Origin: Caldalkalibacillus uzonensis
Lineage (GTDB): Bacteria; Bacillota; Bacilli; Caldalkalibacillales; Caldalkalibacillaceae
Length of the DNA stretch: 64,000 nt
Reading direction: 5' to 3'
NCBI RefSeq assembly: GCF_030814135.1
Contig: NZ_JAUSUQ010000005.1
Coordinates: 1-64,000 of the forward strand
The translations under genes were made by a program, and so were the position numbers. The notes under the pieces are model-generated. The model saw only the letters and a program-made list of their open reading frames with translations. It was not told the origin of the DNA and did no database searches. Below, in pieces: positions 1 through 15,944 of the stretch (positions are counted from its first letter, which is position 1; every line of letters begins with the position of its first letter).

Positions 1-57
1 TGAATTTCTTACGGTTCATATTGGACACATCCTCTCCCAATTTTTATTGTAAGGGAC

Positions 58-207
58 TTAACTAAAATGTGTCCATGAAACTATACTAACACCAAAAAAG
101 TTTTCAAGCTCCTCTCTCATAATGAGCTCAAGTTTTTCTTTAACAAATGCTCTTAACAAGTTATCTAGTTGATTTTCTATCCCGGAATTTGTTACACTTG
201 ATACCAT
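58..207 (-). pseudogene. IS256-family (Mutator-type) transposase, N-terminal remnant
   Basis: A 49-codon minus-strand frame begins with ATG at 207, preceded by a good ribosome site (GAAAGGAG, about 219-226). Its first ~38 residues (MVSSVTNSGIENQLDNLLRA, then FVKEKLELIMREELENFF) read like the conserved start of IS256-family transposases, which open with a helix rich in KEKL.L.M.EE. The similarity stops abruptly after residue 38 and the frame ends at a TAA, so the catalytic DDE domain is absent. A second short minus-strand frame (MNRKKF...) begins at 19 and runs off the window. The 8-bp words GGACACAT (24-31) and ATGTGTCC (67-74) flank the break as an inverted repeat. This is probably the residue of an internally deleted element. 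Assignment is by pattern only. Confidence 0.55.
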
Positions 208-208
208 A

Positions 209-264
209 AGGTAGGGTACTCCTTTCTTTTATGGAATGTCGCCAATTCCGAGGATACCCTACCT
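209..264 (-). promoter_or_regulatory. Hairpin leader of the transposase remnant (possible IS end)
   Basis: Perfect 10-bp arms AGGTAGGGTA (209-218) and TACCCTACCT (255-264) enclose an inner GGAAT/ATTCC pair. On the minus strand the structure sits just 5' of the transposase start and would fold close to its ribosome site. Hairpins like this limit transposase translation from read-through transcripts in several IS families. On the plus strand it is followed by a T-rich run, so it could also act as a terminator. The IS boundary itself cannot be fixed from this sequence alone. Confidence 0.45.
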
Positions 265-1250
265 ATTTTTATTTTTTCAAGTGCTTACACAAAATATTGT
301 ACGTCATCGAAATGGATCAACACTTACATTTACAAAATAATCCTAGGGCAGTGAAAGACTTCTTAAAAAATGCTTTTCATTATTACACCGAACTGTATCA
401 CCGCATATTACAATATCGTCGAGAACCTCATGATGATTATATTCACGTTTATTATAATCGACTGACTGAAATGGATAGTCAGTTTACTCTTATCTTATCG
501 GCTTGTAAGCTCCATGATCCACAAGAAGATGAAAAGATAAAAGTGATATCGTATGAGGTTGATCGCCTCTTTACATTACTACAACTTCAAAGAAGTTATG
601 ACAGTAATGATTTTAATGAGTCCATTTATGATATTAGCAACAAAATTAGGGAACAAGATGTTAGCGTGATTAGAAAAGTGTTTGATCAAAAATTGATTGA
701 GCTATTATCGGAAAACCGCGGTGTTAAAATTGCTGATGTTTTCTCCTATAACTTATTCCGTGATACCGGCATTGAGTTAAATAAGCGATTTAAGCGATAC
801 TTTTTTGCTCGGATTGAACAATTTATTGCCGATAATACAAACATGCAAATGAAACATTCATTGTATGATTTAGTGGCTAATACGGGTCCCGTGAACGGAT
901 TTCATATCGAGCATATCTTGGCGGATAATCCTGAAAATCTGGCTGCATTTGGACATGATGAAGACCGATTTGAACGGGAGAGAAATCGTCTAGGTGGATT
1001 ATTGTTATTAAAAGGGAAGGATAATATATCCAGTAATAATGAATCTTATTCTGAAAAATTGAAATCCTATGCCAACACACTGTATTGGAATGAAACCTTA
1101 CGGCGGGACAGCTATAAATCAAAGTTAGATTTTAAAAAGATGATCAGAAAGTATAACCTTAACTTCCGGCCAATGGATAAGTTTGGTCCAGAGGAGTTAG
1201 AAGAAAGACACCAGCTTTTGTTTGACATGGCTAAGATTATATGGAAATAA
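231..1250 (+). pseudogene. DUF262/DUF1524 (GmrSD-like) protein, 5'-truncated
   Basis: The 339-codon frame ends with a DUF1524-type HNH-like nuclease region: FHIEHIL (about residue 224) followed by RLGGLLLLKG and an SEKL motif. This is the usual His-x-x-His and RLGNLTLL pattern of the C-terminal half of GmrSD-type type IV restriction proteins. The N-terminal DUF262 (ParB-like NTPase) half is missing. The first ~25 codons run through the transposase leader and are not homologous, and no ribosome site precedes the internal ATG at 312. The gene was most likely cut by the adjacent insertion element. It stands directly upstream of the helicase-nuclease gene in the same orientation. Whether the remaining half is expressed is unknown. 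Confidence 0.6.
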
Positions 1251-1277
1251 GATATAATACTGATTGGTGATTAAAAA

Positions 1278-1307
1278 GGGCACGGTTAACTTCATTTAAT
1301 CGTGCCC
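1278..1307 (-). terminator. Hairpin between truncated DUF1524 gene and helicase gene
   Basis: GGGCACG (1278-1284) pairs with CGTGCCC (1301-1307), extended inward by TTAA/TTAA. The T-run needed for an intrinsic terminator lies on the minus-strand side (AAAAA at 1273-1277), although both flanking genes are on the plus strand. A similar GGCACGAT hairpin follows the next gene. Confidence 0.4.
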
Positions 1308-1357
1308 CATTAATGGAAGAAAGAGAGTAGATCGAAAGAATGTGAGGTGGTTTTAGC

Positions 1358-4300
1358 ATGCTTGGTACCACTTCAAAAGTGGCTCAGATTTTTGAGTACT
1401 TACTTGCCGTTAGAAATTTGAACGAAAAAATTGATCGAAAGTTAATTGACTATGAACGAATATGGTGGCTTCATGAGCTGGTTGAAGATGAGGGATGTTA
1501 TATTGCGGGTCGGGGGTCTGATGAGGCGGCATGGTTAGAGGTACATAAACAAGAGATTCCACCCAAACTTGTATTACCCTTCATTCTAAAACAATGGGTT
1601 GAGTATTCTGATTCCCCGGATAAAAATCCGGAGGTGATCAAATCCCGTTTGATCGGTAATGAGGACCAGGGAGAACATAAAAAGATCCTGTTTGAGGACG
1701 ACCCCAAACGGGTGGCAGCCTACAATGAATGGTATCGCCATCAGTGGGAACCTTGGGCACAGGTGGCTTCTCGAAAAATGAAAATTCAACGTTTATACAA
1801 TGAACTCTTTACCTTATATCAAAGGTTCCAACGGGAAGGAGAACTCCTTGAGCTGGCGTGGGGACATGGGCTGTTAAATTGGAGTGTTGGATCTGAAAAA
1901 ATTGAACGGCCTTTTTTTGTTACCCCTTTGGAATTACAATTTGAGGCTAAAAAAGGGGTGTTTAAACTTTATCCTACTAGCAAAGGCACCACTTTAGAAT
2001 TGGATATGCTTAACAATCTAGATATTCCCAACATTAGGCGCTTACAACAAATGGAACGCCAAGTGGGAGAAATAGACCTTAATGTGTGGGATAGGGATAG
2101 TCTTACGCCCCTTTTGAGGGAAATTGTGCACACAATCCATCCCCAGGGCCGTTATGTGGAAGATGAAAAGCATCGTCCCCAGCAACCTCGTATACCGGTG
2201 GTGACATATACACCCGTCTTATTTTTAAGATATAAAAATAACAGGGTATGGCAACGGGAATTATTAGGTATTTTAGAGAAGCTGCGTAATGGTTTTCCTG
2301 TGTCTGATCCGGTTCAACTCCTCGCCACAACAGATACAGAGCAGATTATCTCCCGGCATCAACAGGACAAACAATGGGCTAAGTCAGGGGAACAATTATT
2401 ATTTCCCTTGCCAGCCAATGAAGAACAAAAATTAATTGCTCAGAAATTAGCGACTCAACCGGGGGTCGTTGTCCAAGGCCCTCCGGGAACAGGAAAGAGC
2501 CACACGATAGCTAATCTCATTTCACATTTGTTAGCTCATGGCAAACGCGTATTGGTGACCAGTGAAAAAGAACCGGCTTTACGGGTATTAAAAGAAAAAA
2601 TTCCGCCCGAAATTAGATCGTTGTGTGTCAGTCTGCTTGGTGGAGATTCAAAATCACTGAAAGAATTAGAAACGACAATTAAAAATATTGCCGAGGGAAT
2701 GGATTCTAGACAACCTGAAATCATTCAGAAGAATATTTCGCGGATGAAAAGAGAGTTGGATGAAACCAGGAGACAGATGGCCAAACTGCAGAAACAAATC
2801 AATGATTCGGCAGAGGGTGAAAATAAACGGATGACCATTGATGATTTGGTTATGACCCCGTTGGAGATGAGCAAATGGTTAGCGGCCAATAAAAGACATG
2901 ATTGGTTTCCTGATTCACCAAACGTCGATCAACCATTCCCTTTAACGTCAGACGAACTTAAACACTTCATCACCTTGCTAAATGATTTAGAGATTGAAGA
3001 TATTCAACAATTGCAACAATATCGGCCATCCACAGATAGTCTCCCTTCTCCATCACAGTTTGAAGAAAACGCTTTTCATGTCAAACAATTAGCGAATCAG
3101 GCCAAAGAACAACAAGTGTATTATGCGGACTGGACTTTAAGTGAAATCCCATCCAATTTAGACCAGTTAATTAAAAGTGTTGATCAAGCAATCACTATTC
3201 TTCCAGATCCGTCGACCCCTTGGCTACATATGATCATTGAGGACATAGTGAGTGGTGGGGAGAGGGGGCAAATGTGGACAACATTGGCTAATCAGTGCCA
3301 TGAACTTATTGCTGAATGGCGAACCTTACGACAAACGTTAATCCAGCACAGTGTGACTGTACCTGAGGAAAAAGAGCAATTTCAACTCATACAAGATCTT
3401 CAAAAGTTGAAAGATCACCTTGCCAGACAGAAGGGAACTGGATGGTTATTTAGAAACATCACTGGTAGAAAATTAGCCTATTTGTTAGATCAATGTCGAA
3501 TTGATGGACGCCCAATCCAATCAGAGCAGGACTGTGATATCATCTTAGACTATTTAAAGATTGAAGAATTAAGTCGGAAAATTGCCTTAGTCTGGAACAG
3601 ACATATGGCTGAAGTGAATGGACCAGAAATTAAGTCGTCCGATCCACGTTTTATTATCAAACTAGAAGAGTATCTATACGAAATTGTTTCTCTACTTACA
3701 TGGCCAGAAAAAATGGAACAATTAAGGTCACAAGTAGAAGTCCTAGGGCTTCCGGAGAACCCTCAGTGGACTAAAAGAGATTGGTTTAAAAAGCTTAAGA
3801 AAGGTCTCCTAGGGCTTAAGATCAAAAGGCAATATCAACAAGCCATGGTCTTCTTTCAAGATTTGAAGAATCAATTGATCAAAGGAAAAGAAGCACATCA
3901 TGCCCATGAATCGTGGGATCAATTGTTTCAAGCTTGTGAAGAGTTGAATGAGGATAAATGGAATCTGGTTTATCAAGAGCTGCTTCGTTTTGAAGGAATG
4001 GAAGCCGATTATGCTCAGTTTGTTAAGTATAGATCTAGGTTAAAAGAAACGTGTCCAAGATGGCAAACTCAATTAGAAACAACACGACAAGAAGGACAAT
4101 CTGTAGACTTGCCGGAAGATGTATTCTTGGCATGGAAATGGAAAAAAGTTGATGCATGGCTTAATGAACTCAGAAAACAGCCAAGTATTGAACAACTTGA
4201 GCAGGAACTGACTCTTTTACGTAAAACCGAGTCTAGATTGATTCGCCAATTAGTGGCTGAGTCAACCTGGTTAGCTCAAATTAAACGCACAACATCCGCT

Positions 4301-5680
4301 CAAAAACGAAGTTTACATGCGTGGTTAAATGCCATTAAAAGAATCGGAAAAGGGACAGGTAAATATGCCAACATGTATCGAAAAGAAGCACAAAAAGAGA
4401 TGACCACATGTAAGGATGCCATCCCTGTGTGGATTATGCCAATTCAAAAAGTAGTGGAAAATATTGAATTAAATACAAACTTTTTTGATGTGATTATCGT
4501 GGACGAAAGTAGTCAAAGCAACCTCATGTCCCTTTGTGTGTTGTTGCGTGGAAAGAAGGCTGTTATTGTAGGGGACGATAATCAAATTAGCCCTGAAAGT
4601 GTAGGGATTAACGTCGCCGAGGTCCATGAGCTGATTGAAAGACACCTAACGGATATCCCTCAAAAGAAACGGTTTGAAATGACGACCAGTTTGTATGACA
4701 TCGCCAATCAAATATTTGAAGGTAAAATTTTATTGCGAGAGCATTTCCGCTGTGTACCGGAAATCATTCAATTTAGCAACGATCTAATGTACGGAGGGAA
4801 GATGGATCCCTTGCGGATTCCCCATCCAGACGAAATGATCGAGCCCCCTGTCTTAGCCGTGCGAGTCGAAGAAGGTTATCGAGAAGAACATACGACCAAA
4901 CAAATTAACCGGCCTGAAGCAGAGGCTATTGTTGATTATATTGAAAAAATATGTTCCAATCCGAAGTTAAAAGATAAAACAATTGGTGTAATTTCCCTGC
5001 AACAATCAGATCAAGCCCGTCTGATCGAAAATATGCTTAGAGAGCGAATTGGTGAAGAAGAGATGTTAGAACGGAAATTGCTGTGTGGAGATGCTTATAC
5101 GTTCCAAGGTGATGAACGAGATATTATTCTTTTATCTATGGTCGTGGCAACAAATATGAGGATTGGAGCTTTAACCAAAGCTTCTGATATGAGACGTTTT
5201 AATGTAGCATCGAGTCGAGCGAGAGACCAAATGATCTTATTCCATTCTGTGGACCTAAACGATTTAAACCCTAACTGTGTCCGATATCAATTGTTAAATT
5301 ACTGCCTCAATCCTGCCCGTGTCCAAACGGACTTAGAACAATATGAGCATGAATTTGATTCTCAATTTGAAAAGGATGTCTTCCGTTTAATCTCGGCTAG
5401 AGGGTATCGTGTTGTTCCACAATTTAAAGTCGGAACAGCAGGTAAAAGAATAGATTTAGTGGTTGAGGGCATGCGCAACCGCTTGGCTGTAGAATGTGAT
5501 GGAGACAGATGGCATGGGCTTGAACAATGGGAAGCGGATATGGAACGCCAACGTGTATTAGAACGCGTAGGCTGGACGTTCTGGCGAGTAAGAGGCAGCG
5601 ATTTTTACCTTGATCCAGAAAAAGCAATGGAGCCTTTATGGAAAAAACTTGCCGAAATGGGCATTGAACCTGCAGTATAG
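1358..5680 (+). CDS. SF1 helicase with C-terminal Vsr-like nuclease domain (Hhe-like defence protein)
   Basis: A 1440-residue protein. A long N-terminal region precedes a Walker A motif (GPPGTGKSHT, about residue 374). There is then a ~650-residue helical insertion rich in Gln/Glu and likely coiled coil, Walker B (VDESSQS, ~1048), a GDDNQ motif, the HFRC motif, FQGDERD (~1252) and the motif VI region NVASSRARDQ (~1287). These are hallmarks of UPF1/DNA2-type SF1 helicases. Residues ~1330-1430 form a Vsr/MTES_1575-type PD-(D/E)XK nuclease (FEKDVF, RIDLVVEG, AVECDGD.WH). Helicase-Vsr proteins of this layout, described as Hhe, act against phage; that role is inferred here. The ATG at 1358 has a GTGAGGTGG site upstream. 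The gene has its own downstream terminator and lies between type IV restriction-like genes. Confidence 0.85.
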   Translation: MLGTTSKVAQIFEYLLAVRNLNEKIDRKLIDYERIWWLHELVEDEGCYIAGRGSDEAAWLEVHKQEIPPKLVLPFILKQWVEYSDSPDKNPEVIKSRLIGNEDQGEHKKILFEDDPKRVAAYNEWYRHQWEPWAQVASRKMKIQRLYNELFTLYQRFQREGELLELAWGHGLLNWSVGSEKIERPFFVTPLELQFEAKKGVFKLYPTSKGTTLELDMLNNLDIPNIRRLQQMERQVGEIDLNVWDRDSLTPLLREIVHTIHPQGRYVEDEKHRPQQPRIPVVTYTPVLFLRYKNNRVWQRELLGILEKLRNGFPVSDPVQLLATTDTEQIISRHQQDKQWAKSGEQLLFPLPANEEQKLIAQKLATQPGVVVQGPPGTGKSHTIANLISHLLAHGKRVLVTSEKEPALRVLKEKIPPEIRSLCVSLLGGDSKSLKELETTIKNIAEGMDSRQPEIIQKNISRMKRELDETRRQMAKLQKQINDSAEGENKRMTIDDLVMTPLEMSKWLAANKRHDWFPDSPNVDQPFPLTSDELKHFITLLNDLEIEDIQQLQQYRPSTDSLPSPSQFEENAFHVKQLANQAKEQQVYYADWTLSEIPSNLDQLIKSVDQAITILPDPSTPWLHMIIEDIVSGGERGQMWTTLANQCHELIAEWRTLRQTLIQHSVTVPEEKEQFQLIQDLQKLKDHLARQKGTGWLFRNITGRKLAYLLDQCRIDGRPIQSEQDCDIILDYLKIEELSRKIALVWNRHMAEVNGPEIKSSDPRFIIKLEEYLYEIVSLLTWPEKMEQLRSQVEVLGLPENPQWTKRDWFKKLKKGLLGLKIKRQYQQAMVFFQDLKNQLIKGKEAHHAHESWDQLFQACEELNEDKWNLVYQELLRFEGMEADYAQFVKYRSRLKETCPRWQTQLETTRQEGQSVDLPEDVFLAWKWKKVDAWLNELRKQPSIEQLEQELTLLRKTESRLIRQLVAESTWLAQIKRTTSAQKRSLHAWLNAIKRIGKGTGKYANMYRKEAQKEMTTCKDAIPVWIMPIQKVVENIELNTNFFDVIIVDESSQSNLMSLCVLLRGKKAVIVGDDNQISPESVGINVAEVHELIERHLTDIPQKKRFEMTTSLYDIANQIFEGKILLREHFRCVPEIIQFSNDLMYGGKMDPLRIPHPDEMIEPPVLAVRVEEGYREEHTTKQINRPEAEAIVDYIEKICSNPKLKDKTIGVISLQQSDQARLIENMLRERIGEEEMLERKLLCGDAYTFQGDERDIILLSMVVATNMRIGALTKASDMRRFNVASSRARDQMILFHSVDLNDLNPNCVRYQLLNYCLNPARVQTDLEQYEHEFDSQFEKDVFRLISARGYRVVPQFKVGTAGKRIDLVVEGMRNRLAVECDGDRWHGLEQWEADMERQRVLERVGWTFWRVRGSDFYLDPEKAMEPLWKKLAEMGIEPAV

Positions 5681-5697
5681 TTGTCACTTACGATGTT

Positions 5698-5738
5698 GAA
5701 AGGCACGATTTTACGTTTGATCGTGTCTTTCACTTTTT
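5698..5738 (+). terminator. Intrinsic terminator after helicase-nuclease gene
   Basis: GAAAGGCACGAT (5698-5709) pairs with ATCGTGTCTTTC (5720-5731), a 12-bp stem with one G-U pair and a 10-nt loop. A T-rich tail follows. Confidence 0.75.
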
Positions 5739-5815
5739 ATTAAATAATGCAGGATATCAATCGAAAAAGCAGAAATATATAAAAATAATATATATTTTAA
5801 AAGGGGTGTATCTTA

Positions 5816-6403
5816 ATGCCTCTGCTAAGTTTAACCGATTTTGTTGATATAGTATCAAAATCTGGGACACCTAAAATCACTAAGATTCGTCAAATTAAAG
5901 TTAGGCCTGACTATAATCCTGCTCTAGATTATTATAAATTACTTCGTAATAGATTAATTGAGACTCATGAAAAAAATTTAGGTAAAAGCTATTTAAAGAA
6001 CTTATTACAATATATTACGGATCAACGTAAACTACATAATTATGAACCTCTGATTGAGGAATATTGTAGATGGTGGGGCAGAACAAAATATGATTGGTTT
6101 AATCCTCCCTCAGGCAAATGGACTCACGGGTCTGTACAAGTGACTATTAATCCTGAACTCGGGCTGATAAAAGATGGTAAGAAATTGTTAATTAAACTTT
6201 ACTTTAAATCTGATAAATTATCAAAAAACAAAGTTAGCGTTATATTATATTTAATGAAGAATGTGCTCGTCCAAGAAAATTCATCAGATATGAATGTTGG
6301 TATACATGATATTCGACACGGAAAAATGTATACTTCTCCTATTAAGGAAGAGGGTTTAGATGCTATGTTAAAGGGTGAAGCTGCATATATTGAAACAGTA
6401 TAG
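5816..6403 (+). CDS. Hypothetical protein in defence island, unrecognised family
   Basis: A 195-aa protein with no motif I can assign. It is soluble-looking, with no signal peptide or membrane span. It begins MPLLSLTDFVDIVSKSGTPK and has a basic, helical N-terminal half. A Trp-rich segment (YCRWWGRTKYDWF, around residue 84) is followed by a predicted beta-rich half (VQVTINPELGLI, LLIKLYFK). An AAAAGGGGTG ribosome site lies about 10 nt upstream of the ATG. The gene and its flanks (5740-6510) are visibly more AT-rich than the neighbouring mcrC region, which suggests separate acquisition. It lies alone between a terminator and the mcrB promoter region, so it is not clearly part of either system. 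It could be an accessory or immunity factor, but no function is assigned. Confidence 0.7.
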   Translation: MPLLSLTDFVDIVSKSGTPKITKIRQIKVRPDYNPALDYYKLLRNRLIETHEKNLGKSYLKNLLQYITDQRKLHNYEPLIEEYCRWWGRTKYDWFNPPSGKWTHGSVQVTINPELGLIKDGKKLLIKLYFKSDKLSKNKVSVILYLMKNVLVQENSSDMNVGIHDIRHGKMYTSPIKEEGLDAMLKGEAAYIETV

Positions 6404-6511
6404 AATGCTATTTAACAAAATATAGAGCAGATTTATTATATATGATCTTTAAAAATATAATATATAATAGTATATTTCAATGAGCCTTTGAATCCATAGA
6501 GGAGTGACTCC

Positions 6512-8790
6512 ATGCAACTAACAAACCACCACTTCGATGTTTTCGACCGCGACTCGTACGAATACCGCGTCAATTCACCGAATGCTGAACAAGTGCGGCA
6601 AGAATACCAGACCGCTTGGCAAGATTGGAACCGATTAATGGATTTGACATTAACTAGGCTTGAAGGTGACGGTATCAAAAAAGAGAGAACGGAAAACTGG
6701 CAAAACAGTGGTCGGTTATCCCGTCGATTTTGGACCAGATTTAGCGTGAAGATAGATTAGATTCGGCATCCTGTATCGCTGTTATGATCAACCGTCTCAA
6801 CCTGCGGGTTTATTTGGAGTGGCATAATAAAGCAACGGATAAATCAGCGAATTCATTGCAGGATCATAACGATTATTTACAATTTGTTAAACAATGGGCA
6901 GATGAACAGCACGTCAACAGTAACCGTTATTTTGTATGGACATCCCAGGATGGTGACGAACAAGAGTATTTGTCTTTAACCGACTATTTAAGGGATTCAT
7001 CTTACCAACAACAATATCAAAATCACGTTAATCATAATCATGATTGGGTCCGGATCGGCGTTGTTGTACCGAAAGAAGAGGTTGTACAGTGGGACAATAT
7101 CGAAGAAAAACTTGCCCAGTGGTTAAAAGAGCTGCTGCCCCTTTATGATTACACCACGGGTGGCAAAAATCATATGCTGCTCCCCTCCTCTCTGAGAAAC
7201 CTGTTTTCACCCGGCCGCAGGCAAGCCTCATATAAAATGGTTCTCACTTTAGCTTTGCTAAACACCATGGATCAAAACGGAATTGCCAGGCTGTCCGATG
7301 TAGCCGAAGACGCGATTGCTTATTACAAACAAAGGGAAGACAAGGGTGAAATCATTGAAAATTCAAAAACGGAGCTTGTCAAAAGTGACTGGAAAGATCC
7401 CGGTTATATTCGACGGCTGTTACTGAAAAATCCCTATCGTCATATGCAGGACGTTCTGGAGAAAATTGAGCATGAGCAAGTTGAATATTTAAGGTTTAAA
7501 CCTGAAATGTGGAAAGAGATGAATCAGGATGTTATTGCAGCCTTAAGAGTGTATGCCACAGAAGCATTGCAAGACTATTATTCCTCTCTTTCGGACAATC
7601 TCGAAAAAAGTGAATCCGTGGTGTTGAATATACCTGCTAAGGAAGGTTTATCCCACATCCAATCCTACATCCGTTCCAAAGGATTCTACTATTCAGACCG
7701 GTTTATAGAAAACTTTTATCTTTCACTTAAAACAAAGCCGTTTGTTATTCTGGCCGGGACCTCCGGAACAGGTAAAACCAAACTGGTTGAGCTCTTTGCC
7801 GAGGCCATGGGTGCCACCGAGAAGAATGGACGGTTTAGACTGATCCCCGTCCGTCCCGACTGGAGCGACCCCTCGGATTTATTGGGTTATGCGGATTTGC
7901 AGGGAGAGTTTCGTCCCGGTCCGTTGACTGCGGTGCTTCAAGACGCTTTAAGACCGGAAAACAGGGACAAGCCCTATTTTGTCTGTCTGGATGAAATGAA
8001 TTTGGCCCGGGTGGAACACTATTTCAGTGACCTGTTAAGTGTGATGGAGACCCGTAAGTGGGATGAGCAAAAAAAGACCATTGTCACCCATCAACTTTTG
8101 GACTCGGCTCCAAATACAACTAACGGGAGTGCCCCCAATGATCTGTACATACCGGATAACGTCTATATCATTGGGACTGTCAACATGGATGAAACCACCC
8201 ATCCCTTTAGCAAAAAGGTCCTGGACCGGGCCAACACGATTGAGCTAAACGAGGTTAATCTGGAGGCATCCCTCGATTTTTACTTAGAGGAAACTAGAGA
8301 GCGGGAAACAGCTGAACAACAGGTATTTGGCAACTCGTTTTTAAAAGCGGATTATCTCATACTGAAAGATGCGTTTACCGGGGAAAACGAACCATTAATC
8401 AGGCGGACCGTGCAAAAATTAAGCGAGATTAATGGCATTCTGGCCGGGGCCCATCTGCAGGTCGGTTTCCGGGTACGGGATGAGATCCTCTTTTACATGC
8501 TGTACAACGACCGCTTTCAGCTCATGCCGGAACAGGAGGCGCTGGATTTTCAGATCATGCAAAAAATCCTGCCCCGCATTCAGGGGAGCAGCATGAATAT
8601 CAAGCGCATCCTGGTAGAACTGTTTAACACATTGGGGAACACCAACTTGTCTGAACAGGATCACGGACTATACGATGAAATGAAACTGCGTGTGGAAGCA
8701 AATTCCCCTTACCGCCGCTCATTGAGCAAGCTGGCAGAGATGGTCAGGAGGTTTGAAGAGGATGGTTTCACCTCATTCTGGATGGCCTGA
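6512..8790 (+). pseudogene. mcrB: McrB-type AAA+ GTPase, frameshifted near codon 78
   Basis: Two adjacent frames form one protein. The first (ATG 6512, good AGAGGAG site) runs MQLTNHHFDVFDRD... to FWTRF and stops at 6760. The second continues with REDRLDSASCIAVMINR and LNLRVYLEWH and ends at 8790. The shift lies between 6742 and 6757 and fits one missing base, so the ATG at 6784 is only an internal Met. The C-terminal half is an McrB AAA+ domain: Walker A GTSGTGKTKL (~7757), Walker B CLDEMN (~7984), and a TVNMDETTHPF stretch (~8180) matching the NxxD GTP-recognition signature. McrB translocates on methylated DNA and drives the McrC nuclease (family knowledge). The ~400-residue N-terminal region should be the DNA-reading part. 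The shift may be natural decay or a sequencing error. Confidence 0.85.
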
Positions 8791-11298
8791 TCAAGTTCAG
8801 GACCTTCTCCATATCGAAACGGAGCAACTGGTGCTGACAATTAAGGGCAGGCCCGTTCATCCCACGGTGCGGCAACTGCAGCTCCATGATGAAGAGAACA
8901 AAGCCCTGTTGGAAGTGTATCCGGCTGAGGCGGAGGTGTATCATTTTGATCCCCGGGCCGCAACGGAGGATCACCTGGTTCCCTATAGCGGCCCCGACGT
9001 CTATCCGGTCTTCTATGAGAACCAGGATTATGAGCTGGTCATTCAGGTGAAGGATCCGGATCTGACTATCACCTTTGAGCATGACAATCCTTCCCTTTCA
9101 AAAGCCGTTTCCAAGGTAAGAGGCATGGACCGGTTGTGGACCGGACACCTTAATTTTCGCAACGAGGTGGGCTATACCGAGTTTAGAATCAGGTCGGGAA
9201 AAGTTTTGTTGCTGAAGGTCACCCCTTCCAAAATGGATTACCGCCGGGATTATATGCAATTGTTGGACGAGGTGAACCGGACCGTCTACAACCTGGCCTA
9301 TGATTTTTTGCGCAAAACATTTCATACCATGGGGCTGTATGAGGGGCAAAAACCCACCAAAGCGGAGTTTTTTGCCATCCTGGAGACCATCATGGACCAG
9401 CTGGTCCAGGCGGTGGAACGGATTGAACTGTTTCCCCAAACCAAGCTGGAAAGAGAAGAGCGGATACGTCCGGCAGACAGGGTGCGCAAGGCCTCCCGGA
9501 GAAATCACCGCTGGCTGGCCAAAAAGCTCCATCTCCTCCAGCCCCATCAACTGGGGATGTTACAGATCGAAGGGCAGGCCTATCATCCTTTACGTTTACG
9601 GGAAGAGCGGAAACGGCCATCCTTTGACACACCGGAAAACCGCTTTTTAAAGTGGATGCTGCAACAACTGATCAGGCAGCTGAACAGCTTTGAACAAGCC
9701 TACAGGGAGGCCTTTGCCCAGCGGGATCAGAATGAGACATTTTTGGCCCGGGTCGAGCGGACAAAACAGACGTTGCGCCGCCTGGTTCACAAACCGTTTC
9801 TGGCTGAAGTGGGGGCTTTGCAGCATATTTCCATCACCCTGGTCATGCAGATGGGGACGGGTTACCGGGATGTGTACCGTTTTTACCTGATGTTGCGCAA
9901 AGGCTTATCCATCCAAAGCGATATTTTCCGTCTCTCTCCCAAAGACCTGGCCACGCTGTATGAGTACTGGTGTTTCCTCACCCTGCACCGTTTGCTCAGC
10001 AAAAAATACGAAGTGGTGAAAAATGATCTTATCAAAATCAATGACAGGGGCTTATACGTGACTCTGGAAAGGGCTGCAAGCGGCAAAGTAACCTACCGCA
10101 ATCCCCGGACCGGAGAAAGATATCAACTGGTTTACAATCCCCTGTATAAGGATGGCGTGGTCAATCAGCGTCCAGATCATGTCCTCTCTTTGCAGAAAGA
10201 AGATTCACAGATAACGTACAAGTTTGTCTTTGATGCCAAATACCGCCTCAATCCGGCCGTGCCGGGCAGCGATTATGCCCGTAAATACGGGCAGCCGGGT
10301 CCGGAAGAGGACGACATCAACACCATGCACCGTTACCGGGATGCCATCATTGTCCAGGACAGGACGGATGAAGCTCACGGAGGAGGTTACCAACGCCTGA
10401 TGTACGGGGCCTATGTGCTGTTTCCTTACCGGGATGAAGGAAGGTACCGTCAGCATCCCTTTTACCGCAGTATCGATACGGTCAATATCGGGGGGCTGCC
10501 TTTTCTGCCCGGGACGACATCGATGGTGGAAGAACTGCTGGACCAGCTGATCACCGAAACGGCGGAGGCTTCATTTGAACGGGCCACCCCGGTGCGGGGT
10601 ATGAGCGAGTTTTTTGCCCGGAAAAAGGCCAGTCTCAACGTCCTGGTGGGTTCCTTGCGCCGGCCCAGGCAAGGATATGACCAGCTTTCCCTTTGTTTGC
10701 AACACCGCTTTTACCATATTCCTCTGGAGCTTGTGCAATACCATTTGAGCCACATTGAATATGTGGCCTTGTATCAGCAAAAACATGATTATCCGCCGGG
10801 AGGCATCCTCTATTACGGCAAGGTGAAAGACTTTCAGATCGTGAGGCGCAGAGAAATAAAGGAGCTGCCCCGAAGACCGGAGCGGGAGGCGCGGCTGTAT
10901 GTCCGGTTCAATGTGCAGGATTGGGAAAGAGAAAAGAGCCCATTGAACCGAGGGGGTACGGGGTGTCATCCCATTTATTCACCTCTTGGGAATTATTCAA
11001 CCAGGCGGTGGAACTTCCTGAACTGACATTGAAAAATGAAGAACAATACCGTCTGTGGCGTGAGCTGCGCCGGGTAGATCAAAATGTGCGTCTCCATTTG
11101 CAGAACCGTTGGGCTGACCGGATTAAGGAAGATGAATTGGTTTATGAATTGATGGGCATCAGGTTGACTGTTCATCCCCGCCGGGGCAAGGTGTTGATCC
11201 AGATGGGGAAGGATCACCGGGAGGTATCTCTGGCCGATTTGCGTTTCAGGCCCAAGAAGCTGTTGAATATGATTGAAAGGTGGAGGAAGGGCCAGTAA
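8762..11298 (+). pseudogene. mcrC: McrC-type DUF2357 nuclease, frameshifted near its 3' end
   Basis: The partner of McrB, overlapping its end by 29 nt. The ATG at 8762 is preferred over a TTG at 8753 because AGGAGG (8746-8751) lies 10 nt upstream. Residues ~90-330 form a DUF2357 region. A PD-(D/E)XK nuclease follows, with RPDHVL (~470) and FDAKYR (~489) carrying the acidic and Lys catalytic residues. The main frame stops at 11026 with a non-homologous tail. From about 10,930 the conserved C-terminus (KRKEPIEPRGYGVSSHL, then WELFNQAVELPELTLK) continues in another frame to 11298, again as if one base were missing in GGGAAAGAGAAAAGAG. Together with McrB it would form a type IV modification-dependent restriction system. 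As written, the protein loses its last ~120 residues. Confidence 0.8.
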
Positions 11299-13967: not shown

Positions 13968-15944
13968 ATGAGTACAGATGTAGGAGGCATTCACGAAGTC
14001 ATCAAAAATGTTCAGCTTGTTTATCCGGACGAAGCGAAACAACGCTCAACGGCTTTGGGAAGCAGTGAAGCTTTTCAGGATTTGTTAAAAAAATCACAGG
14101 AAGATCCCGCAGCTTTTTGGGATGAGGTCGCTCGGGAACTGCACTGGTTTGAACCGTGGCAAGAAACAATCAGGGGCTCGTTGCCCGACTTTGAATTTTT
14201 CAAAGGGGGCATCAGCAATCCTTGTTACAATCTCCTTGACCGCCATATCGCCAATGGTGCAGCCAATAAAACAGCCCTGATTTGGGAAGGTGAAGACGGA
14301 CAAACGCAATTTTATACGTACCAGATGCTGCTGGCCGAAGTGAACCGCTTTGCCAATGTGCTCAAATCTTTTGGGGTGAAAAAGGGCGATCCTGTGGCCA
14401 TTTACCTGCCCAATCTTGCTGAGTCCTTCATTGCTATCCTTGCCTGTTTCCGGCTGGGGGCGGTCTATAGCACGATTTTTTCCGGTTTTTCCGAACAAGC
14501 TTTGCTGGACCGGTTGTCTAGTTATGAGCCCAAAGTGATCATCACTGCAGATGCCACCCTCCGGCGCGGAAATGTGATTCCGCTGAAGGAAAAAGTCGAC
14601 CGTGTCATCGATCAAATTCCTGATGTGCAAGCAGTGATTGTCGTCGACCGCCTGGGAACAAATCCGGAGATGAAAACAGGAAGGGACTATTGGTGGCATG
14701 AACAACGGGCCAAGGCCGGTATTCACTGCGAGCCCGCCCGTATCGAAGCGAATGAACCCGGCATTGTTTTCTATACAAGCGGGACCACAGGAAAACCAAA
14801 AGGAGTGGTTCATGCCGGCATGGCCTTCGTCGTTCAAAACTACATTTATGCCAAATATCATATGGACTTTAGGCCGGACGATGTCTTTTGGTGTACGGCC
14901 GATGTTGGCTGGCTGACGATGCATATCTGGGGTGTTGCCGGTGCTTTGGCCAATGGGGTCACCACGCTGGTTTATGAAGGCGCTCCCAATTATCCGGATC
15001 AGGACCGGATTTATCAGATTATTGAGAAATACCGGGTGACCAAACTGTTCACGGCTCCTACTGTGTTGCGAATGCTTCGCAGTCTGGGTGATGATGCCGT
15101 TAAGCCTTATGATCTTGCATGTCTCGAAGTAGTTTCTCTGGTGGGAGAGCCGTTTGATCCGGAAACGTGGAATTGGACATATGAAGTGCTCGGACAAAAA
15201 AATATTTGCGTGAACAATACTTGGGGTCAGACGGAAACAGCAGGCACGCCCCTGGCGGGTGCAGCCTGGCTGACACCGATGAAACCCGGATCGGCCGGCA
15301 TTCAATTTTTGGGCGCTGATTTAGGCATTGTGGATGATGAAGGCAAACCTGTCCCTCCAGGCACATTGGGCAACCTGGTTATACGGAAGCCTTTTCCCAT
15401 GCTGTGCCGTACACTATGGAAAGAACCTGAGCGTTATTATGAGAAATATTTCAGCCAGGTGGAAGGCTGCTATTACGCCAGTGACATTGCTGTACAGGAT
15501 GAAGACGGGTATTTCTGGGTGGTGGGTCGTTCCGATGATGCCTTTAATGTTTCAGGGCATCGTCTGAGTACCATGGAAATGGAGAGCGCTGTCCTTGAGT
15601 GCGAATCAGTGGCTGAAGTGGCGGTTATCGGTGTACCGGACGAGATCAAAGGTGAAGTTCCGGTGGTTTTTGCCACTCTTAAAGGAGAAATACCTTCAAA
15701 GGAAGCATTAAAAGAACAAATTGAAGACAACATTGTCAAAGGGATTGGTCAAATTGCCCGGCCTAAAATGGTCTTTATTGTGGAAGCCATGCCGAAAACA
15801 ATCAGCGGCAAGATCGTGCGCCGCCTGTTAAAGGAAATCGTGGTAAAAGGTGAAGTGTCAGGGGATCTCACCGGGCTTGAAGATCCAAATGTGCTTGAGG
15901 ACATTAAACATGTGGTTTCAGCTGAGATGAATTCGAGTGTGTAA
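13968..15944 (+). CDS. Acetyl-/acyl-CoA synthetase (AMP-forming)
   Basis: A 658-aa cytoplasmic enzyme with an ACAS N-terminal domain (residues ~30-100, FWDEVARELHWFEPW), the ATP-binding loop YTSGTTGKPKGVVH (~268) and the C-terminal swivelling domain ending in PKTISGKIVRR. Lys615 there is the usual catalytic and acetylation-controlled lysine. It joins a carboxylic acid to CoA through an acyl-AMP. The acyl-pocket motif reads NTWGQTETAG: the second Trp of the WWQTE motif that limits true acetyl-CoA synthetases to acetate is Gly420 here. In this family that change opens the pocket to longer or branched acids, so propionate, isobutyrate or similar is as likely as acetate. The start has a GGGGGAGGGG site, and a cre box and a terminator bound the unit. 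Confidence 0.85.
   Translation: MSTDVGGIHEVIKNVQLVYPDEAKQRSTALGSSEAFQDLLKKSQEDPAAFWDEVARELHWFEPWQETIRGSLPDFEFFKGGISNPCYNLLDRHIANGAANKTALIWEGEDGQTQFYTYQMLLAEVNRFANVLKSFGVKKGDPVAIYLPNLAESFIAILACFRLGAVYSTIFSGFSEQALLDRLSSYEPKVIITADATLRRGNVIPLKEKVDRVIDQIPDVQAVIVVDRLGTNPEMKTGRDYWWHEQRAKAGIHCEPARIEANEPGIVFYTSGTTGKPKGVVHAGMAFVVQNYIYAKYHMDFRPDDVFWCTADVGWLTMHIWGVAGALANGVTTLVYEGAPNYPDQDRIYQIIEKYRVTKLFTAPTVLRMLRSLGDDAVKPYDLACLEVVSLVGEPFDPETWNWTYEVLGQKNICVNNTWGQTETAGTPLAGAAWLTPMKPGSAGIQFLGADLGIVDDEGKPVPPGTLGNLVIRKPFPMLCRTLWKEPERYYEKYFSQVEGCYYASDIAVQDEDGYFWVVGRSDDAFNVSGHRLSTMEMESAVLECESVAEVAVIGVPDEIKGEVPVVFATLKGEIPSKEALKEQIEDNIVKGIGQIARPKMVFIVEAMPKTISGKIVRRLLKEIVVKGEVSGDLTGLEDPNVLEDIKHVVSAEMNSSV

Follow-up and report, generated by a model that had tools for sequence, protein, structure and literature searches.

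The draft assembly of Caldalkalibacillus uzonensis (3.88 Mb in 53 contigs) contains, within the initial 64 kb of its contig C5 (in the following the window), a group of five genes at positions 231 to 11298, all encoded head to tail on the plus strand (Table 1). These are a truncated GmrSD-type gene, a gene for a helicase with a fused Vsr-type nuclease, a 195-amino acid (aa) orphan and an mcrBC pair, with open reading frames (ORFs), order and strand as listed in an initial annotation made from the sequence alone. The GmrSD-type gene, mcrB and mcrC are damaged, while the helicase gene is intact. The designation as a defence island, also made in the initial annotation, is supported, since four of the five genes belong to defence families, the island is partly decayed and relatives of the helicase have further defence genes as neighbours. 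It is a real but ordinary and partly dead island, most features of which are known in kind. The new part is the HI_0552 domain in the reader slot of McrB, and this exchangeable N-terminal slot with its uncharacterised domain is the only part worth a bench test.

Table 1. Features of the island and of the insertion-sequence remains in front of it (positions in the window).
Feature	Position	Strand	Evidence
Insertion-sequence remains	1..308	-	95-308 IS256/Mutator-type end; 1-94 part of another repeat
5'-truncated GmrSD-type gene, C-terminal domain alone	309..1250	+	PF07510 5.8e-13
UPF1-like superfamily 1 (SF1) helicase with C-terminal Vsr-type nuclease, 1440 aa, intact	1358..5680	+	PF13086, PF13087, PF18741; PADLOC PDC-S37 8.4e-67
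Walker A, QGPPGTGK	2474..2497	+	alignment of 20
Helical stretch between Walker A and B, residues 420-1041	2615..4480	+	AlphaFold2 (AF2) model; alignment
Walker B, DESS	4502..4513	+	alignment of 20
MTES_1575 Vsr-type nuclease domain	5366..5650	+	PF18741 1.2e-32
195-aa orphan gene	5816..6403	+	relatives in 6/397 other class genomes; no family
mcrB first frame, first part of HI_0552 domain	6512..6760	+	PF10786 7.4e-8, profile 1-80
mcrB second frame: HI_0552 remainder (to about 7149), Paenibacillus-shared region, NxD GTPase	6784..8790	+	PF10786 8e-9, profile 93-200; AAA_5 1.9e-12; GTVNMDE
mcrC main frame: DUF2357 and PD-(D/E)xK nuclease	8753..11026	+	PF09823 4.1e-62; PF04411 (PDDEXK_7) 9.8e-45; RPDH...DAK by reading
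mcrC C-terminal piece, other frame	10921..11298	+	93% identity (123 residues) with the last part of the unsplit mcrC in the sister species G001

The frameshift in mcrB lies between positions 6760 and 6784 and splits the HI_0552 domain; with 32.7 and 35.8 bits, both pieces exceed the PF10786 cut-off of 25 and belong to this family. The motifs GTSGTGK, CLDEMN and GTVNMDE (NxD) were read in the following GTPase, for which E. coli McrB provides the nearest solved chains, in line with an McrB-like GTPase. The McrC protein combines DUF2357 with a PD-(D/E)xK nuclease; its gene is frameshifted near 10.92 kb. Its nearest relatives are found in Bacillota, and a PDB sequence search returned one chance-level match only. 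The McrB-McrC(DUF2357) pair named in the initial annotation is thus retained, with matches to AAA_5, DUF2357 and PDDEXK_7, and corrected in that mcrB is frameshifted as well as mcrC. The pair resembles the type IV McrBC of E. coli K-12 in its AAA_5 GTPase, in the domains of McrC and in the overlap of the genes. It differs in the NxD instead of the NxxD motif, in HI_0552 instead of MrcB_N and in the frameshifts of both genes. DUF2357 had been taken for a less studied form of McrC, which is a misreading; according to the main text of PMC11090510, McrC proteins, including the E. coli one, usually have it as their N-terminal domain. The same text describes NxD, mostly followed by E or D, as the mark of a GTPase branch without a characterised member as of 2024. 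What is unusual in the McrB of the window is its NxD motif and its N-terminal HI_0552 domain, in place of which no match to MrcB_N or EVE was obtained with Pfam. The assumption that two systems of the island target modified DNA is not substantiated, since the GmrSD-type gene is a remnant and McrB carries HI_0552 without a match to either of these two domains. A C-terminal extension of McrC behind the nuclease (10430-11298) is common to its relatives, belongs to no Pfam family and may hold a further domain.

A sister species of the same genus (G001) carries mcrBC at the same locus, beside the same 5'-nucleotidase gene and the next ORF. Its mcrB encodes a PUA-like domain (PF24405, 2.6e-8) in front of the GTPase, and no match to PF10786 was found in its genome. 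Synonymous divergence (dS) between the window and G001 amounts to 0.004 for the ORF at 13968-15944, 0.056 for the nucleotidase gene, 0.33 for mcrC and 1.55 for mcrB as aligned. The identity per 100 bases is 0.85-0.98 at 8.5-11.3 kb, 0.61-0.81 at 7.7-8.5 kb and 0.43-0.58 before that, and both species show a rise in G+C content at the border in front of the GTPase (0.43 to 0.48 and 0.38 to 0.52). Replacement of the N-terminal part of McrB with McrC kept would leave such a pattern of dS, identity and G+C; no donor was seen. The different readers on the same pair in two sister species suggest that readers have been exchanged while motor and cutter were kept.

The mcrC gene of G001 is a single ORF of 852 aa, and a programmed frameshift in mcrC was rejected on these grounds. 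The ratio of nonsynonymous to synonymous divergence (dN/dS) is 0.10 after the split and 0.12 before it. Judged by these ratios, mcrC would have been constrained until very recently, or else its frameshift is an assembly error. That both frameshifts are assembly errors, and that the strain has an unbroken, functional mcrBC, would agree with the equal constraint across the split, with the 53 contigs of the draft assembly and with the single frame in G001. Two separate splits beside a gene truncated by an insertion sequence fit decay instead, and the second mcrBC copies of both genomes are broken too; we regard assembly errors as a possible but rather doubtful explanation. These second, more decayed mcrBC copies are located on contig C15 of the window's genome and on contig C36 of G001, in both cases beside other defence genes. 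On C36, the broken copy adjoins genes for DUF6079, an N6/N4 DNA methylase, PglZ and SNF2 (L198:5715-14171 and L199:555-3308), which we take to be a BREX-like block, and the matching locus on C15 looks decayed.

The N-terminal slot was surveyed in 71 related McrBs from loci of McrC relatives, of which 69 with at least 480 aa were kept and two shorter ones left out; ten representatives were examined by Pfam. MrcB_N, which binds methylcytosine, occupies the slot in 45 of the 69 proteins, in one case together with EVE. HI_0552, Mrr_N and a PUA-like domain were found once each, four proteins have the shared region alone and 17 are unassigned. The single HI_0552 protein is encoded in Paenibacillus phytorum (L111), where HI_0552 is the only domain recognised in front of the GTPase. 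No report of a fusion of HI_0552 with McrB was found in the literature searched, and HI_0552 is not named in the main text of PMC11090510. HI_0552 is rare: it was detected in 5 of 398 genomes of the class, in 1 of 398 in a sample of the phylum and, within a single family, in 10 of 151 genomes, two of which had already been counted. These counts stand without a positive control, as the PF10786 control matched in none of 14 control genomes. Across the three samples, no open frame except that of the window had the length needed for a fusion; L111 stems from another collection. Free-standing HI_0552 occurs in three unannotated phage records, and the L111 domain matched two records titled Neisseria in the plasmid set.

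The HI_0552 domain of L111 was modelled together with 11 relatives (AF2; pLDDT 86.4, pTM 0.87). The only Foldseek match of the model at E <= 0.001 was 2a8e (E 6.1e-7), a Bacillus subtilis protein which we take to be YktB/DUF1054; no viral fold matched at this threshold. With VIA-align, 2a8e reached a Z of 16.8 (196 aligned residues, root mean square deviation (rmsd) 3.1) and the DUF1054 protein 3mqz a Z of 12.8 (190 aligned, rmsd 3.8), followed by 1yb3 with 8.1. HI_0552 and DUF1054 proteins thus share a fold by model. The restriction endonuclease DNA-binding domains 3sse (Z 6.3; 137 aligned, rmsd 4.2) and 3ssc (Z 6.2), presumably both the N-terminal domain of E. coli McrB, rank lower. The likeness of the modelled domain to 3sse is suggestive only, since Z values of 6.1 and 5.8 were obtained for type III secretion chaperones.

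The domains, motifs, breakage, slot diversity and the difference between the sister species are observations, while all biochemical steps described in the following, and the ligand, are inferred. The reading we favour, with a probability of about 0.55, is that of an island that arose by turnover and has since decayed in part, which holds a helicase-nuclease machine and an McrBC machine with an exchangeable reader slot. In the latter, a type IV-like McrBC encoded by the two frameshifted genes, the reader would bind a feature of the invader's nucleic acid and the NxD GTPase would act as the translocase; McrC with its DUF2357 and PD-(D/E)xK domains would stimulate the GTPase and cut. The N-terminal slot would accept different readers and hold HI_0552 in the window; that HI_0552 within McrB is a nucleic-acid reader with a DUF1054 fold appears slightly better founded than the opposite. 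Several observations weigh against this reading. HI_0552 is mostly free-standing, with unrelated neighbours in the two loci read, and was found fused in just two McrBs, those of the window and L111. The Z to 3sse is no higher than that to the chaperones. Comparison of the HI_0552 and MrcB_N sequence profiles with hhalign gave no match (0.8%), so that HI_0552 as a sequence relative of MrcB_N is unsupported. Furthermore, mcrB of G001 lacks its 5' end, cut off near the start of a contig, so that a one-for-one swap was not seen.

The free-standing proteins and the chaperone-level Z would also suit HI_0552 as a protein-binding, regulatory or structural domain. Recognition would then reside elsewhere, e.g. 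in the C-terminal extension of McrC, which its relatives have as well and which matches no Pfam family. This alternative is tentative at best, given that in L111 no domain other than HI_0552 was recognised ahead of the GTPase, and that HI_0552 sits where relatives have MrcB_N, EVE, Mrr_N or a PUA-like domain. If HI_0552 is the reader, as we prefer, a wider and clearly more speculative proposal follows. HI_0552 and DUF1054 proteins might all be readers of nucleic acid that belong to a single fold class, with a remote relationship to the methylcytosine-binding domain of McrB. McrBCs of the NxD type might swap HI_0552, PUA-like, MrcB_N, EVE and Mrr_N domains as cassettes, with motor and nuclease kept, each reader reporting a different mark of the invader, and the free-standing proteins might be readers as well. 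Both families are seldom named in the full-text literature, and neither Pfam nor structure titles give a function for them; the reader position of a restriction motor, where they are placed here, provides one that can be tested. Such tests are possible without the broken copy of the window, since unbroken ORFs exist elsewhere, namely mcrC in the sister species and HI_0552-mcrB together with mcrC in Paenibacillus phytorum.

The other machine of the favoured reading is encoded by the intact helicase gene. The gene product of 1440 aa was confirmed as an SF1 helicase with a C-terminal Vsr-type nuclease. It contains the Pfam domains AAA_11, AAA_12 and MTES_1575, the origin of the last being among the subjects of PMC3710099, and its nearest solved chains are those of NAM7/UPF1. 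It would work as a single-gene UPF1-like helicase-nuclease: its ATPase would move along the invader's nucleic acid, with the helical stretch that separates Walker A from Walker B as sensor or coupling element, and cutting would be done by the fused nuclease. Matches to the helicase at E <= 1e-60 were obtained in 24 of 398 class genomes, its own included. PDC-S37 is the best PADLOC profile (292-1340 of 1550 positions, no cut-off given), followed by MkoC, Hhe and MkoA. The helicase core is common to Hhe, ProA, Mokosh (MkoA/MkoC) and PDC-S37, and the profiles of Hhe, ProA and PDC-S37 run over the nuclease end as well. The window protein lies, however, far under the curated NCBIfam cut-offs of Hhe (NF042953, 160 of 2000 bits) and ProA (NF058533, 263.5 of 1500 bits), its N-terminal 350 residues match no Pfam family, and PDC-S37 is an unnamed candidate. 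Among the publications listed for Mokosh, Hhe, ProA and for DUF4011 helicases with Vsr, none dealt with this helicase family. The helicase was not found in viral contigs; 39 plasmid records matched at E <= 1e-50, one of which covers at least 80% of the query, and PHROGs yielded matches to the helicase core and one weak match to an unknown family.

For an end-to-end alignment, 19 relatives were added to the window protein (n=20), while 9 of 28 rows were left out as not full length: the gene is in pieces in L137, L145 and L163, L164 is a fragment, and L161 and L162 can be aligned only partly. Walker A and the DES(S) Walker B are kept in all 20 sequences. The window protein has the nuclease residues expected by the initial annotation, while the acidic residue of the second nuclease motif is lost in 3 of 20 relatives: position E1379, presumably catalytic, is E in 17 of the 20, with D in L136, H in L138 and Q in L141. 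The long insertion between Walker A and B, which the initial annotation had proposed as a sensor, is indeed modelled as mostly helical (AF2; pLDDT 87.6, pTM 0.54). It is not peculiar to this protein: with a constant length of about 620 aa (600-624 aa in 20/20) it is a family-wide feature and not a novelty of the window. The stretch matches no Pfam family and no PDB fold at E <= 0.001, and its best structural match, to generic coiled coils (Z 9.6, 74 residues), is below the meaningful level for helical models. According to the main text of PMC11090510, CnuH helicases possess a large helical insertion behind Walker A, and those of CoCoNuT type III-B also a fused Vsr. Since the modelled stretch is family-wide and, by analogy, like that described for CnuH, it may be a sensor, an arm or coupling element being equally likely.

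The neighbourhoods of 25 helicase loci and of the best 80 of 122 McrC loci (58 titled Paenibacillus by our own count) were compared. An mcrC gene is present in only one of the 25 helicase loci (L161, 46% identity), together with mcrB; L139 adds a weak AAA match. In L161, mcrBC comes first, followed by two small ORFs and a distant helicase-Vsr relative of 1702 aa on the same strand (L161:1742-12658). Conversely, an McrB match was detected in 73 and a helicase match (E <= 1e-3) in 8 of the best 80 McrC loci. In L050, L075 and L091, a protein encoded no more than 10 kb from mcrC matches the helicase as far as the Vsr region; two of these proteins have 1981 and 2000 aa, and one is in two pieces. 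Very large helicases near McrBC in Paenibacillus are those of L075 (14515-20460, 1981 aa) and L091 (15577-21579, 2000 aa). The GmrSD remnant and the 195-aa gene were found neither in the 25 helicase loci nor in the best 80 McrC loci. With mcrC in just 1 of 25 loci, helicase and mcrBC as one travelling unit were rejected as a rule, and the island genes cluster without a fixed operon; joint travel, for which the initial annotation had proposed to compare neighbourhoods, has largely given way to mere co-location. Among 72 neighbour proteins of 19 helicase loci, PADLOC matches occurred once each (25 of 69 families listed), with BrxL, PglZ, pAgo, a type III restriction enzyme, PDC-S18 and GajB as single cases. 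A transfer-messenger RNA (tmRNA) gene lies 0.2-1.6 kb from the helicase-Vsr relative in 4 of the 25 loci (L132:6700-7062, L133:6889-7250, L135:6603-6964 and L141:12279-12638), with smpB in all three tmRNA loci scanned, and perhaps marks an integration site.

Measured against CoCoNuT type III-B as described in the main text of PMC11090510, the window has the nearby NxD GTPase (GTVNMDE) and the UPF1-like helicase with helical insertion and fused Vsr. It lacks the near-constant association of helicase and McrBC. In front of its GTPase, McrB has the small HI_0552 domain and a region common to other McrBs, probably in place of the long coiled coil of type III-B. No other Cnu component was recognised, and the N-terminal winged helix-turn-helix of type III-B CnuH had no match in the window helicase with Pfam, the only search made for it. 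On C15, remnants of helicase and mcrC (L009) stand in the same order as in the window. Among the matches listed for the window's mcrC, this remnant of mcrC comes closest (70%; the next seven reach 41-46%). With 56% identity, the helicase remnant is no nearer to the window helicase than L163 (56%), so that a joint duplication is unsupported. A composite CoCoNuT-like system, in which the helicase-Vsr protein acts together with the NxD McrBC, would account for the three type III-B features, the same-strand arrangement in L161, the large helicases of L050, L075 and L091 and the two remnants on C15, but is improbable in view of the counts given above, the different gene order in L161, the small N-terminal domain of McrB, the absence of a recognised CnuA- or CnuD-like ORF in the island, the nuclease match retained by McrC and the presence of mcrBC in G001 without the helicase (no match at E <= 1e-30). 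Two separate machines, brought together by turnover and followed by partial decay, remain the somewhat more probable state of the island.

At the start of the window, GmrSD_C was detected in the ORF 231-1250, which confirms the truncated GmrSD-like gene of the initial annotation. The ATG at 231 is located inside the insertion-sequence-type repeat 95-308, hence the gene is cut at its 5' side. The repeat recurs elsewhere in the genome, and bases 1-95 are also found at or near the ends of other contigs. Judged by reading, the reverse strand of 95-230 resembles the start of an IS256-type transposase; a full-length transposase of the same genome used for comparison (L017:974-2143) belongs to Transposase_mut. 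GmrSD proteins combine GmrSD_N (the DUF262 half) with GmrSD_C, of which the window gene has the C-terminal half alone. No GmrSD_N match over the cut-off was obtained in the genome (the control matched in 8 of 14 genomes), and a match below the cut-off elsewhere covers 31 positions. The gene is therefore a remnant, cut by an insertion sequence, with its N-terminal half gone.

The 195-aa gene is a sporadic orphan. No family was assigned to its product by Pfam, PADLOC, PHROGs or NCBIfam, nor was one found for two relatives, and no relatives were found in plasmids, phages or viral contigs. The relatives in the six class genomes share 24-37% identity, and none of the other island queries matched in their loci. 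According to our own ORF reading, two of the relatives (L154:7863-8558 and L159:8041-8745) are located amid phage-like genes, and that in L157 adjoins a recombinase gene.

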